Origin: Anaerolineae bacterium
Lineage (GTDB): Bacteria > Chloroflexota > Anaerolineae > JAAYZQ01
Direction of reading: 5' to 3'
NCBI GenBank assembly: GCA_023544525.1
Contig: JAMJFU010000011.1
Coordinates: 1-39,083, forward strand
DNA: 39,083 nt
Shown here: positions 19,236 to 27,538 of the stretch, in pieces
How the letters are laid out: each line of letters begins with the position of its first letter
Position numbering within the stretch: the stretch's first letter is position 1
Notes under the pieces: generated by a model
Told to the model about the DNA's origin: nothing
Databases searched by the model: none
What the model saw: the letters and a program-made list of their open reading frames with translations, nothing else
Made by a program: the position numbers and the translations under genes

Positions 19236-19292
19236 GAGAGCCTGACCATCTCAAGAGCGACCACTCATCACCGAGAAACTGGAGGTTTGTTT

Positions 19293-20477
19293 ATGGATAT
19301 TCTTGACCGGAAAGAACTGGAACAACTGGGCACAAGGAAGGACGGTTGGCACGTTTCGATCTATATGCCCACGCATCGAGCAGGCGGCGAGGTACAGCAG
19401 GATCCGATCAGGCTGAAGAACCTTCTGACGAAAGCCGAGGAGAAACTGCGTGAGTGGGACCTCCGGCCACCCGAGATTGCGTCGATCCTGGAGCCGGGGT
19501 TCGCTCTCCTGGATGACCACATCTTCTGGCGACGGCAGAGCGACGGGCTGGCGATCCTGGCTGCCCGGGACGCATTCCACACCTACCGCCTGCCTTCCAG
19601 CTTTGAGGAGGAGGTGATCATCGGTCCCAGCTTCTACACCAAGCCACTCCTGCCTATCGTCAGCCACGGCGGCCTGTTCTATGTGCTGGCACTCAGCCAG
19701 GGCCAGATACGCCTGGTGCAGGGGACGCGTTACACCGTGGGTGAGGTCGATCTGGAGGACGTCCCTGACAGCCTTGCCGAGGCCCTGCGGTTGGACGACC
19801 CAGAAGCGCGGCTGCAGTTCCATACCACAACCGGTCCCGGACACGGCAAGGGCGGTGCTCCCACGGCAGGCACCGGAGCCGGGCGCCAGGCAACCTTTCA
19901 CGGTACCGGCGCGCCGGCCGACGACGAGAAGGACGGGATCCTGCGCTATTTCCAGCTCGTCGATAAAGGCATGCAAGAATTACTGGCGGGGCAACAGATC
20001 CCTTTGGTGTTGGCAGGTGTGGACTATCTTCTGCCGCTATACCGAGAAGCGAGCAGCTATGACCACATCCTGGAGGAGGGCATCGTGGGCAACCCGGAGC
20101 AGTTGAGCACCAAGGAACTCCACCAACGCGCCTGGACGCTCGTGCAGCCCCGGTTCCTCGAGGAACAAGAGGAGGCCACCCGCCTCTACCAGCAACTGGC
20201 GGGAGGCGACCGGGCAGTGGCAGAGTTGGACCAAGCCGTGCCCGCGGCCCACTATGGGCGTGTCGCTACGTTATTTGTGCCCGTCGACCTGCAGCGCTGG
20301 GGGACTTTTGATGCCAACACCAACCAGATCGACGCCCACGATGACATGCAACCAGGTGACATAGACCTCCTGGACCTGGCAGCGGTCCAGACTCTGATCA
20401 ATGGCGGCACCGTCTACGCTGTCGAGTCGGACCGCATTCCAGGCGAGGGACCCCTGGCTGCGATCCTGCGCTATTGA
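19293..20477 (+). CDS. Bacterial archaeo-eukaryotic release factor (baeRF)-like protein
   Basis: VSIYMPTHRAGGEVQQDPIRLKNLLTKAEEKL N-terminal motif, FHGTGAPADDEKDGILRYFQLVDKGMQELL central motif, C-terminal GRVATLFVPVDLQRWGTFD. ATG at 19293 preceded by GGAGGT (upstream TTG at 19287 less likely). Confidence 0.72.
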   Translation: MDILDRKELEQLGTRKDGWHVSIYMPTHRAGGEVQQDPIRLKNLLTKAEEKLREWDLRPPEIASILEPGFALLDDHIFWRRQSDGLAILAARDAFHTYRLPSSFEEEVIIGPSFYTKPLLPIVSHGGLFYVLALSQGQIRLVQGTRYTVGEVDLEDVPDSLAEALRLDDPEARLQFHTTTGPGHGKGGAPTAGTGAGRQATFHGTGAPADDEKDGILRYFQLVDKGMQELLAGQQIPLVLAGVDYLLPLYREASSYDHILEEGIVGNPEQLSTKELHQRAWTLVQPRFLEEQEEATRLYQQLAGGDRAVAELDQAVPAAHYGRVATLFVPVDLQRWGTFDANTNQIDAHDDMQPGDIDLLDLAAVQTLINGGTVYAVESDRIPGEGPLAAILRY

Positions 20478-20515: not shown

Positions 20516-21724
20516 ATGCGCATTCTGATGGTCAGCCATGGCTATCCGCCCACCCTGAGCGGCGTAACCCTGGTCGTCCAGAAACTCGCTCGAGCCATGG
20601 TCAGACGGGGCCATCATGTGACGGTGGTCACCTCGAGCGATGCTGGAGAGACCTATGAGGCCGAGGACGAAGGGGTCCGGCTCATCCGAGTGCACGGTGG
20701 GCTGAATCCCTTCTGGAAGGAAGCGCCCATCCCCTTCATCAGCCACGGCGACCTGCAGGACATCGTAGAGGACGTCCAGCCCGATATACTCCACGCGCAC
20801 GAGTCGGGCCCCCTGGGCCTGCAACTTGCGCGACTGGAGACCGAGCCGGATGTGCCTCGCGTTATCAGTTGTTATTATGTGCCCCGCTTTGCCGCTCGTT
20901 ACCTGGCCTGGAACGGGGAACCCTCGGAGATCGTCGAGAGCATCGTGCGTAGCTACTCCATATGGCTGTTCAACCACTTCCGATGCGTCGTCTTTTCCAC
21001 CGCCGCTCACAGGCAGTTCTTTGCCGGGGACGAGCTGGTGGTGCCCACGACGGTCATCTCCAACGGCGTGGACGTGCGCCGCTATTCACCCGCCGGCGGG
21101 TGCGACGAGGGCGTTGAGGCAAAATACGACCTTCCGGCTGGCCCGCGCATCCTCTTTGTCAGCCGGCTGGCCAAGGACAAAGAGATCGACGTACTGCTCA
21201 GCAGTATGCGGTCCCTGGATCCAGCTCTCGGGGCACAACTGCTGCTGGTAGGCCGCGGCGACGACGAACCCCGTCTTCAGGAGATCACAGACGAGCTCGA
21301 TCTGAGGGATCGTGTTCGCTTCCTGGGTTTTGTGCCTGAGGAAGACCTGCCGGCCTTGTACCGGGCATCGAGTCTCTTTGCCATCGCCTCCATCTGCGAA
21401 GTCCAGAGCCTGCCCACGTTGCAGGCCGCGGCAACCGGGCTGCCGGTGGTCGCCGCGGATGCCGTCGCTTTGCCAGAACTGGTGCACCACGGCGTGAACG
21501 GTTTTCTGGTACCGCCCGGAAAACCAGAGGCATTTGCCCTGGCGATGGAAGAGCTACTGCGCGACCAGGCCCTGGCTGCCCGGATGGGCACAGCCAGCCG
21601 GGCCATCGCGCAAGAACATGCCGAGGACCGGACCTTCGACCAGTACGAAGAGCTGTGGCTGCAGACTGCACGCGAACACGACAACCCCCGGCAGCCGTCG
21701 GTGATCACACCCAGAGCACACTAG
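20516..21724 (+). CDS. Glycosyltransferase family 4 protein
   Basis: MRILMVSHGYPPTLSGVTLVVQKLARAMVRRGHHVTVVTS; RILFVSRLAKDKEIDVLL; C-terminal ICEVQSLPTLQAAATGLPVVAAD. Confidence 0.88.
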   Translation: MRILMVSHGYPPTLSGVTLVVQKLARAMVRRGHHVTVVTSSDAGETYEAEDEGVRLIRVHGGLNPFWKEAPIPFISHGDLQDIVEDVQPDILHAHESGPLGLQLARLETEPDVPRVISCYYVPRFAARYLAWNGEPSEIVESIVRSYSIWLFNHFRCVVFSTAAHRQFFAGDELVVPTTVISNGVDVRRYSPAGGCDEGVEAKYDLPAGPRILFVSRLAKDKEIDVLLSSMRSLDPALGAQLLLVGRGDDEPRLQEITDELDLRDRVRFLGFVPEEDLPALYRASSLFAIASICEVQSLPTLQAAATGLPVVAADAVALPELVHHGVNGFLVPPGKPEAFALAMEELLRDQALAARMGTASRAIAQEHAEDRTFDQYEELWLQTAREHDNPRQPSVITPRAH

Positions 21725-21744
21725 ATAGCCATCGATGACCTGAG

Positions 21745-21810
21745 AAAGGCAGGAAGCCAGCGGTCTGCCCCAGCTTCGAGCGGGTAGCTGCTGGATGCCT
21801 TTGCCTTTTT
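21745..21810 (+). terminator. Rho-independent terminator-like stem-loop
   Basis: AAAGGCA (21745-21751)..TGCCTTT (21796-21802) with additional internal pairing, followed by GCCTTTTT. Confidence 0.5.
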
Positions 21811-21850
21811 GGGTCAGATCTGGTACCATATTCGTGGAGGATGCAAGTCT

Positions 21851-23605
21851 ATGCCAGAATCACCCTACCTGCAGCAGCTCGAGAACCGGATAGACATCGC
21901 CCACGTGCCGTTCAGCGACCGGGGATCCCGGCTCCTGGTGTTTCGCTACCCCGACCGGGAGCGGCTCTACATCAAGCTCGCCGAGCGACTGACGGAGCTG
22001 GAGCCCGGCCTCGATACCTACCGGTTTCGCCCGCCGTACATCCCCGACTTTTGTTTTATCGATGAGGAAGGCATGGCGCTCTCCTACCGCCTGACTACCT
22101 ATCCCCACCTCCTCGTCTTTGAGACGCGTCTCGGCTCGTTCAGATTGGCTTTCCACCGGCGGGACACGCTAGCCATCGGTCTGCCCGCCGGGGTAGCGGC
22201 AGGCATCCGTTTCCGGGCCAGCACCCAGATGTGGCAAGAGGAGGAGCGAGGCGGAAAGCTGATGGCAGTGCGCAACCTGGCTTACCGCACCAACGGCGAG
22301 GTGGTCAGGAACGAGCTCAGCTACGAACACAAGGCCTATATGATCGAATTCATCGCCGCCCCTGGGGAGGACCTGGCGATTCACCTGAGTGTACGCGATG
22401 ACCTGCGACTGGCCGGCGATCCGGTGCCCTTTTCGGAGACGGAGGCCACAGCGGAGCGGCGTTGGCACAGCTGGTTCTCCCGGGTGCCTATTGTGGCGGA
22501 ACCGTACCGCGATCACTACTACTATGCCTGGTGGGTTATGAGCAACAACCTTGTCGAGCCCGCTGGTAGGGTTGCCCACGAGGCCATGATGCCCTCCAAG
22601 GTGCAGTACGTCGGCATTTGGAATTGGGATGCCTGTTTCCACGCCCTCGCCTTTCGCCACGCCGACCCCGAACTGGCACGCAACCAGTTGAGGACGATGT
22701 TGGATTGCCAATTGCCCGACGGCATGATCCCTGACGCAGTGCACGACGAAGAGGTTATTGCCAACATCGAATTCCCCATGCGGGCAGAGGTCACCAAGCC
22801 GCCCATCATGGCCTGGGCTGCACTTAAATTGGACGAGACAGATCCGGACCCAGAGTTTCTGCAAGAGATCTATGTCCCACTCGTCCGCTGGAACGCCTGG
22901 TGGTTCAGCATGAATGACGACGATGCCGATGGGCTCGTGCAGTACAACCATCCCTATTCCTCGGGATTGGACGATAGCCCCTTGTGGGACTATGGCATGC
23001 CGGTTGAATCACCCGATCTGAACACCTACTTGTGTGTGCAGATGGGATCCCTGGCCATGATGGCCGAAGCCCTGGGCATGCAGAACGAGGCCGATATGTG
23101 GCGCCGGCGGGCAGCCGCTATCGTGCGGCGGATGATCGAGGATTTCTGGGATGAGGAGGCGGGATTCTTTCGCGCCCTGCGTGACGAGCAACCGATCCCG
23201 GTGTGCACGCCCTTTAATCTCTATCCTCTGTGGACGGGCCAGCTGCCGGATACCATCTGCCAGCGGCTGCTCAACCACCTTACCGATCCCCAAAAGTTCT
23301 GGGGGGGCGTGACCATCCCGACCGTGGCGCGCGACGACCCGCATCACGATCCCGAAACCATGTGGCGAGGTCCTGTCTGGGCCAACATCAACTACATCTT
23401 TGTCGAGGCATTGCGGCAGATAGGCGAACTGGAACTGGCCCGGGAGCTCCGGGACAAGACACTAAGGCTGATCATGGACCAGCCAGGCATGTACGAATAC
23501 TACAACTCTGAAACCGGTGAGCCGCCCACGATCGCCGCCCACGCCTTTGGCTGGACTGCGGCGGTCTTTATTGACCTGGCCATCCAGGCCAGCATCGAGA
23601 CATAG
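21851..23605 (+). CDS. GH63/MGH1-type glycoside hydrolase (mannosyl-/glucosylglycerate hydrolase-like)
   Basis: VGIWNWDACFHALAFRHADPELARNQLRTMLDCQLPDGMIPD; YNHPYSSGLDDSPLWD; MWRGPVWANINYIFVEALRQIG, the (alpha/alpha)6 barrel signatures of GH63-like enzymes. Confidence 0.78.
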   Translation: MPESPYLQQLENRIDIAHVPFSDRGSRLLVFRYPDRERLYIKLAERLTELEPGLDTYRFRPPYIPDFCFIDEEGMALSYRLTTYPHLLVFETRLGSFRLAFHRRDTLAIGLPAGVAAGIRFRASTQMWQEEERGGKLMAVRNLAYRTNGEVVRNELSYEHKAYMIEFIAAPGEDLAIHLSVRDDLRLAGDPVPFSETEATAERRWHSWFSRVPIVAEPYRDHYYYAWWVMSNNLVEPAGRVAHEAMMPSKVQYVGIWNWDACFHALAFRHADPELARNQLRTMLDCQLPDGMIPDAVHDEEVIANIEFPMRAEVTKPPIMAWAALKLDETDPDPEFLQEIYVPLVRWNAWWFSMNDDDADGLVQYNHPYSSGLDDSPLWDYGMPVESPDLNTYLCVQMGSLAMMAEALGMQNEADMWRRRAAAIVRRMIEDFWDEEAGFFRALRDEQPIPVCTPFNLYPLWTGQLPDTICQRLLNHLTDPQKFWGGVTIPTVARDDPHHDPETMWRGPVWANINYIFVEALRQIGELELARELRDKTLRLIMDQPGMYEYYNSETGEPPTIAAHAFGWTAAVFIDLAIQASIET

Positions 23606-23630
23606 GGTAGATAGCCTTAGGAGGTCACCC

Positions 23631-25142
23631 ATGGATTCAGATGCCAGACCGAAGGATTGTGAGCTGCTCCAGTCCGAGTTCTTTGCCAACCGGGCGGTGA
23701 TCATTGCCGCAAACCGCGGCCCCGTCACCTTCACCCGTGACGAAGATGGCAATCTCGAAACGCAGCGGGGTGGCGGCGGCCTGGTCACGGCCCTTACGGG
23801 GCTATGTCGCCATACGACAGACATGACCTGGATCGCCTGTGCACGGACGGACACTGACGTCGAATGGGGACAGGGGCCGGTCGACCTCGAGGATGGCTCG
23901 CATATCCAGGCCAGGTTTCTCTCTCCAAGTGAGGAGGCCTACGAGGCATACTACAACATCATTTCGAATCCCTTGCTGTGGTTCCTACAGCACTCGATGT
24001 GGGATGTACCTCGGGCGCCCCTGATCGACCAGGACACCTGGCAGGCTTGGGAAGAGGGATACGTGGCAGTCAACAAGCTCTTCGCGGAGGCCATCGCCCA
24101 GCAGGTGCGCGCCGTTAGCCGTCCCACGCTGGTCATGCTCCAGGACTACCACCTCTACCTGGTCGCCCGCGAGCTCCGCACCCTCCTCCGCCGAAAACAC
24201 CGAGCTACGGTCTTGCACTTTGTCCATATCCCCTGGCCGGGTGCGGAATACTGGCGCATCTTGCCCCCAGGCATGCGCCAGGCCATCCTGGACAGCCTCT
24301 GCGCGGTGGATGTCCTGGGCTTCCAGACCAAGGAGGACGGGCTCAACTTCTTGCGCACCTGCGAGTCGCTGCTGCCCGAGACAGCGGTGAATTACGGTCG
24401 CAGCAGGGTGTGGTACAGGAACCATGCCACCCATGTCCGCGACTTTCCCATCTCCATCGACATCGATGCGCTCAACCATTTGGCAGCGTCGCCAGAGGTT
24501 TCCGAACACCGGGCCGAGGTCCGAGATATTGTCGGGGATCGCAGGCTGATCCTGCGCATCGACCGCATCGAGCCCAGCAAGAATATCGTGCGGGGTTTTT
24601 TGGCCTTTGACGAGGTGCTGGAGCGCTATCCGGAACACTGTGGCAACGTGACGTTTCTGGCCCTGCTGGTGCCCTCCAGGATGGATCTGAAAGAGTACCG
24701 GGACTATCTGGATGCCTTGATGGCCACGGCTGGCCGGGTGAACGCCAGGCATGGGAGCAGTGAATGGGAGCCGGTCCGGGTGTTGGTGGGCGACAGCTAC
24801 CCGCGGGCCGTTGCGGCCATGCAGCTCTATGACGTCCTGCTGGTGAACGCCATCGTCGACGGCATGAACCTGGTCGCCAAAGAAGGGCCAACGGTCAACC
24901 AGCGGCACGGCGTGCTCATCCTCTCGGAACGAGCCGGGGCCCGGCAGCAGTTGGAGCCAGGTGCGTTGGTGGTGTCGCCCTGCGATGTCTATGCCACGGC
25001 GGAAGCCCTGCACCAAGCTCTGGAGATGCCGGCTGAAGAACGCGAGGAGAGCGCCACGCGGCTGCAATGGCTCATCGAGCGGGAAGACATCTCGGACTGG
25101 CTTTCCCGCCAACTGGAGACCATCTCCGAGCTCAACCTGTGA
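23631..25142 (+). CDS. GT20 family glycosyltransferase (trehalose-6-phosphate synthase-like; VldE-like sequence features)
   Basis: RGGGGLVTAL, FVHIPWPGAEYWRILP, RIDRIEPSKNIVRGFLAFDEVL, LLVNAIVDGMNLVAKEGPTVNQ; ATG preceded by AGGAGGT. Confidence 0.85.
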   Translation: MDSDARPKDCELLQSEFFANRAVIIAANRGPVTFTRDEDGNLETQRGGGGLVTALTGLCRHTTDMTWIACARTDTDVEWGQGPVDLEDGSHIQARFLSPSEEAYEAYYNIISNPLLWFLQHSMWDVPRAPLIDQDTWQAWEEGYVAVNKLFAEAIAQQVRAVSRPTLVMLQDYHLYLVARELRTLLRRKHRATVLHFVHIPWPGAEYWRILPPGMRQAILDSLCAVDVLGFQTKEDGLNFLRTCESLLPETAVNYGRSRVWYRNHATHVRDFPISIDIDALNHLAASPEVSEHRAEVRDIVGDRRLILRIDRIEPSKNIVRGFLAFDEVLERYPEHCGNVTFLALLVPSRMDLKEYRDYLDALMATAGRVNARHGSSEWEPVRVLVGDSYPRAVAAMQLYDVLLVNAIVDGMNLVAKEGPTVNQRHGVLILSERAGARQQLEPGALVVSPCDVYATAEALHQALEMPAEEREESATRLQWLIEREDISDWLSRQLETISELNL

Positions 25143-25170
25143 CGGCTGTGTTGGCAGAAAGGAACGCCGA

Positions 25171-26436
25171 ATGAGCGAGCATGTGCCCACGACCGCTATC
25201 CTGCACTATAGTGCCCCACCCGTGATCGGCGGTGTAGAGGCCGTGATGCTGGCCCATGCCGAGACTTTCGTGGCCTGCGGCTACCCGGTCACGATCGTCG
25301 CCGGGCGCGGCGAGGCCGACGCCCTGCCCGGTGGTGTGGACCTGGTCCTCATCCCTGAGCTCGATTCTCAGCACGAGCAGGTGCTCGAGTTTGGCCCAGA
25401 GCTCGAGCAAGGGCTCGTGCCAGCCGGGTTCGAGGAGTTCACGGGTCTCCTGGTAGAGAAACTGGTGCCGGTCGTAGACCGGTTCGACAACATCATCGTG
25501 CACAATGTGTTGACCAAGCGCTTCAATTTGCCGCTGACAGCGGCCCTGTTCCGCCTGCTGGATGCCAACGTAGCGAGACACTGTATCGCCTGGTGCCACG
25601 ATTTTGACTGGACGAGCCCCCGGTCCCGGTCCAAGGTCCATGAGGGCCATCCCTGGGACCTTCTGCGCACCTATCGCGAGGACCTGACCTACGTGGTTGT
25701 CTCAAAAGACCGGCAGCAAACCCTGGCCGGGCTCCTTGGATGCCCGCAGGAGGAGATCCGCGTGGTCTACAACGGGGTCAGCGCCCCGACCCTGCTGGGC
25801 CTTACGGAGCCCGGCAAAGGCCTGGTCGAGCGGCTCGGGCTTCTCAACGCTGAGCTGGTCATATTGATGCCGGTGCGGGTCACCAAGGCCAAGAACATAG
25901 AGTACGCGCTGCGGGTCGTGGCGGCGCTGAAGGAGCGGGACTGCCGGGTCAAGCTGGTACTCACCGGCCCGCCCGATCCCCACGATGAGCGCAGCATGGA
26001 CTATTTCCGCTCGCTGCAAGAGCTGCGTCGCGAACTGGGTGTCGAGCAGCAGATGCGCTTTGTATTCGAATCCGGCCCGGACCCGGGCGAGGGATATTTC
26101 GTCGACTATCCCGTCGTGGCCGATCTCTACCGGGCCAGCGATCTGCTTTTCATGCCCAGTCACAGCGAGGGCTTTGGCATGCCCATCCTGGAAGCAGGGC
26201 TGGTAGGCATGCCCGTGATTGCCACCTCTGTCCCGGCCGCAGAAGAGATCGGTGACGAGGATGTGATGCTCTTTGACCCATCCGACGAGCCACGGGAATT
26301 GGCCGGCCGCTTCCTGGACTGGGCCCAGAACAGCCCTGTTCACCGTTTGCGCCAACGTGTGCGCCAGCACTACACCTGGCAGACCATCTTTCGACGGGAG
26401 ATCGAGCCCATGCTCCAGCGCAGGTCGGAAACGTGA
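25171..26436 (+). CDS. Glycosyltransferase family 4 protein
   Basis: HYSAPPVIGGVEAVMLAHAETFVACGYPVTIVAGRG; LMPVRVTKAKNIEYALRVVAAL; FMPSHSEGFGMPILEAGLVGMPVIATS. Confidence 0.87.
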   Translation: MSEHVPTTAILHYSAPPVIGGVEAVMLAHAETFVACGYPVTIVAGRGEADALPGGVDLVLIPELDSQHEQVLEFGPELEQGLVPAGFEEFTGLLVEKLVPVVDRFDNIIVHNVLTKRFNLPLTAALFRLLDANVARHCIAWCHDFDWTSPRSRSKVHEGHPWDLLRTYREDLTYVVVSKDRQQTLAGLLGCPQEEIRVVYNGVSAPTLLGLTEPGKGLVERLGLLNAELVILMPVRVTKAKNIEYALRVVAALKERDCRVKLVLTGPPDPHDERSMDYFRSLQELRRELGVEQQMRFVFESGPDPGEGYFVDYPVVADLYRASDLLFMPSHSEGFGMPILEAGLVGMPVIATSVPAAEEIGDEDVMLFDPSDEPRELAGRFLDWAQNSPVHRLRQRVRQHYTWQTIFRREIEPMLQRRSET

Positions 26437-27272
26437 TCCCGCCTGAGCCAGATACGGCGCTCCTGGAGCGGCTCGACCGGGCAGAGGGTGTCCGCCTATT
26501 CCTGGACTATGACGGGACCCTGGCCGACTTTGCGCCGACGCCGGACCATGTCAGTCCTGATCAAGAGCTGGTGGATCTCTTGTCCCAGGTCGTGGACCAT
26601 CCACGCATCCAGGCGGCCATCATCAGCGGCCGGCGCCTGGGTCACATCCAGCGGCTGGTCCCCGTCGAAGGCATCCTGCTGGCCGGAACCTACGGGGTGG
26701 AGATCCAAACACCCCAGGGCGAGCGCCTGGACCGCCTGGATTACCACACGGTCCGCCCCACGCTGGAAAAGCTCAAACCCCTATGGGCAGACCTGGTCGA
26801 AGGGCGTGACGGCTTCTATCTGGAGGACAAGAACTGGGCCCTGGCCCTGCACGCACGTTTTGCCGATCCCGCCGAATCCGATTGCGTGCTGGGCGCGGCC
26901 CGCCAGTTGGCGAGGGATGCTATCCGCTCGGGCCCGCCCGACGTCTTCAGGCTGCTGGGTGGCGACAGGTTCCTGGAGATTGGCCCGCAGTTGGCCCACA
27001 AAGGCCGTACCGTGGACTATCTGCTCGAAAGCCGCCCCTGGCCCGGTGCTATCCCTCTCTACCTGGGGGACGACGACAAGGATGAAGAGGCGTTCGATGT
27101 GATCCAGGCCCATCATGGGTTGGCCATCGTGGTCACGCCTGCGCCGCGCGAGACACAGGCCGACTATCGCCTGCAGTCACCGCAGGCAGCCCGCCGTTGG
27201 CTGCGGAGGTTGCTCGTGCACCTGGGCAGCGCCAGAGAGGCTCCCTCAGGAGCACCGGCTTCGCGTTCGTAG
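26433..27272 (+). CDS. otsB: Trehalose-phosphatase (HAD-IIB, OtsB-like)
   Basis: RLFLDYDGTLADFAPTPDHV; AIISGRRLGHIQRLV; LYLGDDDKDEEAFDVI; GTG start overlapping preceding stop (GTGA). Confidence 0.87.
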   Translation: MIPPEPDTALLERLDRAEGVRLFLDYDGTLADFAPTPDHVSPDQELVDLLSQVVDHPRIQAAIISGRRLGHIQRLVPVEGILLAGTYGVEIQTPQGERLDRLDYHTVRPTLEKLKPLWADLVEGRDGFYLEDKNWALALHARFADPAESDCVLGAARQLARDAIRSGPPDVFRLLGGDRFLEIGPQLAHKGRTVDYLLESRPWPGAIPLYLGDDDKDEEAFDVIQAHHGLAIVVTPAPRETQADYRLQSPQAARRWLRRLLVHLGSAREAPSGAPASRS

Positions 27273-27509: not shown

Positions 27510-27538
27510 TTGACAAACCAGAACATTTGTGCTATAAT
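27510..27538 (+). promoter_or_regulatory. Consensus sigma70-type promoter upstream of gyrB/parE
   Basis: TTGACA (27510-27515) - 17 nt - TATAAT (27533-27538), 33 nt before the ATG at 27571. Confidence 0.85.

Follow-up and report, generated by a model that had tools for sequence, protein, structure and literature searches.

What might a bacterium make when genes of the trehalose type sit among further genes for sugar transfer and sugar hydrolysis? The question is raised by a window of 39,083 nucleotides, the whole stretch of DNA analysed here, which is contig G000:C22 of a 4.5 Mb draft genome (91.6% complete). By gene content, its relatives are Chloroflexota, chiefly Anaerolineae. The first-pass annotation described five co-directional sugar genes at 20516-27272, the last two overlapping at GTGA, and all five open reading frames are present there on the plus strand (Table 1). 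Its family names, GT4, GH63-like, GT20, GT4 and HAD, were checked with Pfam and NCBIfam and are borne out by both. Comparative analysis shows that the conserved unit consists of only four of these genes, GH63, GT20, GT4b and HAD (21851-27272). This is a combination of known families and a real conserved module, and no description of it was found in the literature searched, with subscription papers mostly outside the search.

Table 1. Sugar-related genes of the window, with positions, strand and supporting family matches.
Feature	Position	Strand	Family match and remarks
GT4a glycosyltransferase	20516-21724	+	PF00534/PF13692; outside the conserved module
GH63/MGH1-like glycoside hydrolase	21851-23605	+	PF22422 MGH1-like_GH, 272 bits, and PF03200; two domains
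GT20, trehalose-6-phosphate synthase-like	23631-25142	+	PF00982, 356 bits
GT4b, retaining GT-B glycosyltransferase, predicted primer extender	25171-26436	+	PF00534
HAD phosphatase, trehalose-phosphatase family	26433-27272	+	PF02358, 121 bits

The four genes are closely packed, with 25 bp between GH63 and GT20, 28 bp between GT20 and GT4b, and a 4-bp overlap (26433-26436) joining GT4b to HAD; a search for promoter-like sites within the cluster found none. Beyond its 3' end, a perfect TTGACA-17-TATAAT promoter-like site with a TG lies at 27510-27538, just upstream of a gene that reads from its sequence as DNA gyrase/topoisomerase IV subunit B-like. On the 5' side, ARAGORN calls a tRNA-Gly at 19745-19838, within an open reading frame (19287-20477) for a baeRF/ribosome-hibernation-factor-like protein, and the call is probably spurious.

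Genome scanning shows that GT4b has two kinds of partner. Of 301 genomes sampled across the phylum, 66 contain GT4b relatives, and where the surroundings were read the adjacent gene is mostly GpgS (glucosyl-3-phosphoglycerate synthase), which here has an N-terminal universal-stress (Usp) domain and scores 375 bits (cut-off 262). A GT4b alignment scanned against 84,980 species genomes yielded 80 loci, nearly all from Chloroflexota, which were annotated with the window proteins together with GpgS, GH13 and GT4c. They were then divided by GT4b identity to the window into 27 loci at 46% or above (GT20-type) and 53 below 46% (GpgS-type). GT20 stands beside GT4b at 25 of the former, accompanied by HAD at 23, and GpgS at none; GpgS is found at 49 of the latter and GT20 at none. 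GT4b is thus linked to one or the other in 74 of 80 loci, and GH63 is present in both types. Since the loci were found by GT4b sequence patterns and not by partner genes, the split is not built into the search.

The order GH63-GT20-GT4b-HAD persists even where GT4b identity has dropped to 46-65%, and in those relatives the neighbours outside the four genes are unconserved. No other family recurs at more than three of the 27 GT20-type loci, so the linkage does not reflect general synteny, and same-order recurrence of the unit is far beyond chance. Neighbourhood conservation, set beforehand as the refutation test, therefore came out in favour of the module, which recurs beyond the window genome. 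GT4a fared differently: it has no match beside GT4b at any of the 27 loci, its best identity across the 301 phylum genomes is 37%, and it lies 126 bp upstream of GH63. Not being conserved beside the module, it is ruled out as a pathway member; the four 3' genes of the proposed five-gene cluster stand, and one of the two GT4 enzymes once counted in the unit is unrelated. Some variation exists: 9 of the 25 GT20-type loci show no GH63 in the vicinity of GT4b, though contig ends truncate some of these, and L129 retains GH63-GT4b with GT20 missing. A variant order, GH63-GT4b-GT20, appears at L112:8203-13618.

Phylogenetic analysis places the partner change at a single point. Because related genomes are not independent, the tree is relied on here and not a p-value. 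In a maximum-likelihood tree of 86 GT4b rows (quick search), the GT20-type sequences form one branch of 28 rows, including the window, with SH-aLRT support of 100 and a long stem (0.96). The GT20/GpgS label changes once on this tree, and one partner switch accounts for it. This branch sits inside the GpgS-type radiation (weak support, 81), a placement that hints weakly at a switch from GpgS to GT20. A separate clade of 25 (99) unites the GT20s of these loci, distinct from GT20s sampled elsewhere in the phylum, and L112 is the sole locus whose GT20 comes from outside it. Their GH63s likewise group on a single branch (99) that also takes in three stand-alone GH63s; the exception is L125, whose GH63 is divergent and lies on the opposite strand. 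Additionally, L154 carries a GpgS-type GT4b in a record titled Deltaproteobacteria, placed among Chloroflexota sequences, and represents either a transfer or a binning error.

A closer look at the GpgS-type loci reveals further genes, including a GH13_18 sucrose-phosphorylase-like gene in 26 loci, a second GT4 (GT4c) in 26, and a small protein family in 13, which is a histidine phosphatase (His_Phos) in the three comparable neighbours scored with Pfam. GT20-type loci contain none of the three and have the trehalose-phosphatase-like HAD instead. Confinement of the separate phosphatase and the GH13_18 gene to GpgS-type loci is what a difference limited to primer chemistry would predict. Against the mannosylglucosylglycerate synthase model, GT4c-kind proteins score about 190-270 bits and GT4b about 40-75. 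Clusters of GT4b and the Usp-fused GpgS with the GH13_18 gene, the histidine phosphatase, GT4c and at times GH63 (L137-L190) are widespread in Chloroflexota. The literature searched, with the same restriction on subscription papers, yielded no paper on the product of these clusters and none pairing GpgS with Chloroflexi.

The two modules are also distributed differently among genomes. GpgS is absent above cut-off from the 91.6% complete window genome and from a second genome (G011), which speaks against the glucosylglycerate product suggested earlier for the window genome. Of two complete chromosomes, CP070811.1 (L114) carries the GT20-type module but lacks GpgS, and CP070764.1 has both modules (L128 and L146), a coexistence that argues for different products. 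Elsewhere in the window genome, G000:C477:2508-13226 (L209) holds a LacI regulator, an ABC sugar importer, two MggS-like GT4 genes and a GH13_18 gene; these two GT4s score 358 and about 234-240 bits, below the cut-off of 640.

The association of the GT4b/GH63 pair with GpgS in other Chloroflexota, a point absent from the first-pass annotation, is the main clue to the role of GT4b. Between the two types, primer synthase and primer phosphatase are exchanged as a pair, with GT4b and GH63 retained. From these neighbourhoods, GT4b is probably the primer extender and GH63 the remover of the added sugar.

The features of GT20 and HAD point to the primer itself. As the earlier reading of them as OtsA/OtsB-type genes implied, they resemble a trehalose-6-phosphate synthase and its phosphatase. 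GT20 scores 325.7 bits with the OtsA model, below the NCBIfam equivalog cut-off of 564.85, and is filed as an OtsA-like GT20 and not as an OtsA equivalog, the cut-off being no test of activity. A role as glucosylglycerol-phosphate synthase (GGPS, TIGR02398) is ruled out by 194.5 bits against a cut-off of 569. The best solved relative is 5LQD, the GDP-glucose-dependent OtsA of Streptomyces venezuelae. In mycobacterial and E. coli OtsA, glucose-6-phosphate is bound by Arg9, Tyr76, Asp130 and Arg300 in E. coli numbering (PMC6879718); the window GT20 has Arg29, Tyr108, Asp172 and Arg350 at these positions, and the four are kept in 25-26 of 26 members. At the base-binding positions of the S. venezuelae enzyme, Asp339, Phe341 and Ser344 (PMC5247666), the window protein has Asp388, Tyr390 and Ala393 and the family mostly Glu, Tyr and Ala, a pattern that leans towards a purine NDP-glucose donor without being decisive. 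HAD scores 119.7 bits with the trehalose-phosphatase model TIGR00685, above its cut-off of 68.05, and carries the motifs DYDGTL, SGR, LEDK and GDDDKDE; the catalytic and cap motifs are kept in nearly all members. Because GT20 keeps the glucose-6-phosphate residues and HAD scores as a trehalose-phosphatase, the predicted primer is likely trehalose.

GT4b is predicted to add a sugar to this primer. Its structural model, a confident one (pLDDT 93.5), has a GT-B fold, and the top structural matches are MshA and BshA, which use small acceptors; global superposition is poor, so these are only general GT-B matches. None of the curated function models reaches its cut-off with GT4b, the best being 58 bits against 260. 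With 38.5 bits in the MggS model (NF041101, cut-off 640), it is ruled out as MggS, the MggS-like enzyme being GT4c, found only at GpgS-type loci. The two types are cleanly told apart at eight positions: Lys116, Phe118, Ser152, Met233, Ala240, Asp269, Val298 and Met337. Positions 116, 118 and 152 lie in the N-terminal domain, which in GT-B enzymes is the acceptor side. Trehalose or trehalose phosphate is probably the acceptor.

Structurally, GH63 resembles known alpha-glycosidases, yet it departs from the glycerate hydrolases to which it was first likened. It has both the (alpha/alpha)6 domain and the catalytic Asp/Glu pair of the family; Asp374 and Glu549 are conserved in all 29 sequences compared and align with Asp182 and Glu419 of the glucosylglycerate hydrolase of M. 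hassiacum (MhGgH). The AlphaFold model (pLDDT 92) best matches the alpha-glucosidase YgjK over most of its length and combines the (alpha/alpha)6 domain with an N-terminal beta-sandwich, a domain missing from the single-domain glycerate hydrolases. Lys316 stands where MhGgH has Gln115, as in YgjK, in 29 of 29 sequences of both types, and the score with the glucosylglycerate hydrolase model NF047898 is 123.3 bits against a cut-off of 550. The score, the replacement of Gln115 by Lys and the extra domain rule out a plain glucosylglycerate or mannosylglycerate hydrolase. Between GT20-type and GpgS-type sequences, 157 columns are conserved in both and only 5 are type-specific. The active site is thus alike in both, which agrees better with removal of the terminal sugar than with cleavage of the primer bond, and GH63 is probably an exo-alpha-glycosidase, predicted to break the bond made by GT4b.

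Together, these features outline a possible pathway. GT20 would make trehalose-6-phosphate by transferring glucose to glucose-6-phosphate from an NDP-glucose donor, which may be GDP- or ADP-glucose, and HAD would strip the phosphate either before or after the GT4b step. GT4b would move a further hexose, its identity and linkage likewise conjectural, onto the trehalose unit to form at least a trisaccharide, from which GH63 would remove that hexose again in turnover. The arrangement may have arisen once in Chloroflexota, when a GT4b/GH63 pair, elsewhere coupled to GpgS and glucosylglycerate, took on a new primer-making partner. That the four genes form a cytoplasmic module for making and recycling a glycosylated trehalose, presumably as a compatible solute, has about an even chance of being right. 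More specifically, they may be a counterpart of the mannosylglucosylglycerate pathway in which GpgS has been swapped for GT20, GT4b makes an undescribed glycosyl-trehalose solute, and GH63 is dedicated to it, a tentative proposal that falls somewhat short of even. The literature search, subscription papers again mostly outside it, found no paper naming glucosyl- or mannosyl-trehalose under the terms tried. Of the earlier suggestions, an elaborate trehalose-derived product or a make-and-break cycle gains ground, since the extra GT4 and GH63 are conserved with GT20 and HAD across Chloroflexota.

Several points bear against this reading. GT4c is more MggS-like than GT4b, so the GT4b step is uncertain even in GpgS-type clusters, and the acceptor of GT4b could be other than trehalose. 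The cluster might simply make trehalose through GT20 and HAD, with GH63 turning over trehalose or another alpha-glucoside and GT4b merely co-regulated while acting on an unrelated acceptor. The best scores of GT20 and HAD with standard trehalose enzymes favour this, as does the Pfam Trehalase match on GH63, yet GT4b is the most constant partner and adjoins GT20 across deep divergence. Moreover, both the GH63 and the GT4b family accompany GpgS at loci lacking a neighbouring GT20, which means that neither belongs exclusively with trehalose, and plain trehalose synthesis is judged unlikely.

The partner swap can also be read as a change of enzymes without a change of primer: GT20 and HAD would replace GpgS and its phosphatase, still making glucosylglycerate, and the product would be a glucosylglycerate derivative. 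The functional swap in the gene neighbourhoods is exact, but the intact glucose-6-phosphate pocket of GT20, the lack of the GH13_18 phosphorylase-like gene at all GT20-type loci and the presence of both modules on CP070764.1 make this quite improbable. Finally, GT4 enzymes are common in glycolipid and polysaccharide synthesis, and the module could assemble a larger glycan or the head group of a glycolipid, with trehalose as a building block and GT4b as one polymerising step. However, no further export, polymerisation or acylation gene is conserved nearby, and the GT4b fold matches are led by the small-molecule enzymes MshA and BshA, leaving this idea very unlikely.

If the glycosyl-trehalose reading is correct, the module would provide a new trehalose-based oligosaccharide and a whole make-and-break gene set, found across several Chloroflexota orders whose members are mostly uncultured. 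It would also represent a natural experiment in which one GT4b/GH63 pair has been retuned between glucosylglycerate and trehalose primers, and the eight GT4b residues would mark the primer switch, offering a short testable list.

Compared with known systems, the module combines features of several. Like the GDP-glucose OtsA/OtsB system of S. venezuelae (5LQD, PMC5247666), it has a GT20 with the glucose-6-phosphate residues and a HAD of the trehalose-phosphatase family, and at the donor site its Asp and aromatic residue are like those of the purine-NDP-glucose type. Unlike OtsA/OtsB, it holds a conserved GT4 and GH63 within the unit, and nearly all module GT20s have Ala at the donor-site position of Ser344. 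Mannosylglucosylglycerate (MGG), a solute of Petrotoga and Rhodopirellula, is made by GpgS, GpgP and MggS (PMC3694870). The module is predicted to follow the same logic, in which one glycosyltransferase makes a primer disaccharide that is dephosphorylated and then extended by another, and the GT4b family is linked to GpgS in other Chloroflexota. It differs from the MGG pathway in that neither the cluster nor the window genome has GpgS above cut-off and its GT4b lies far below the MggS threshold (38.5 bits against 640). Like MhGgH, TtMgH and YgjK, the module GH63 keeps the catalytic Asp/Glu, the WxWD motif and the MGH1-like domain. It shares an extra N-terminal beta-sandwich with YgjK, unlike MhGgH and TtMgH, and is set apart from MhGgH by Lys316 in place of Gln115 and by a score far below the GgH cut-off.
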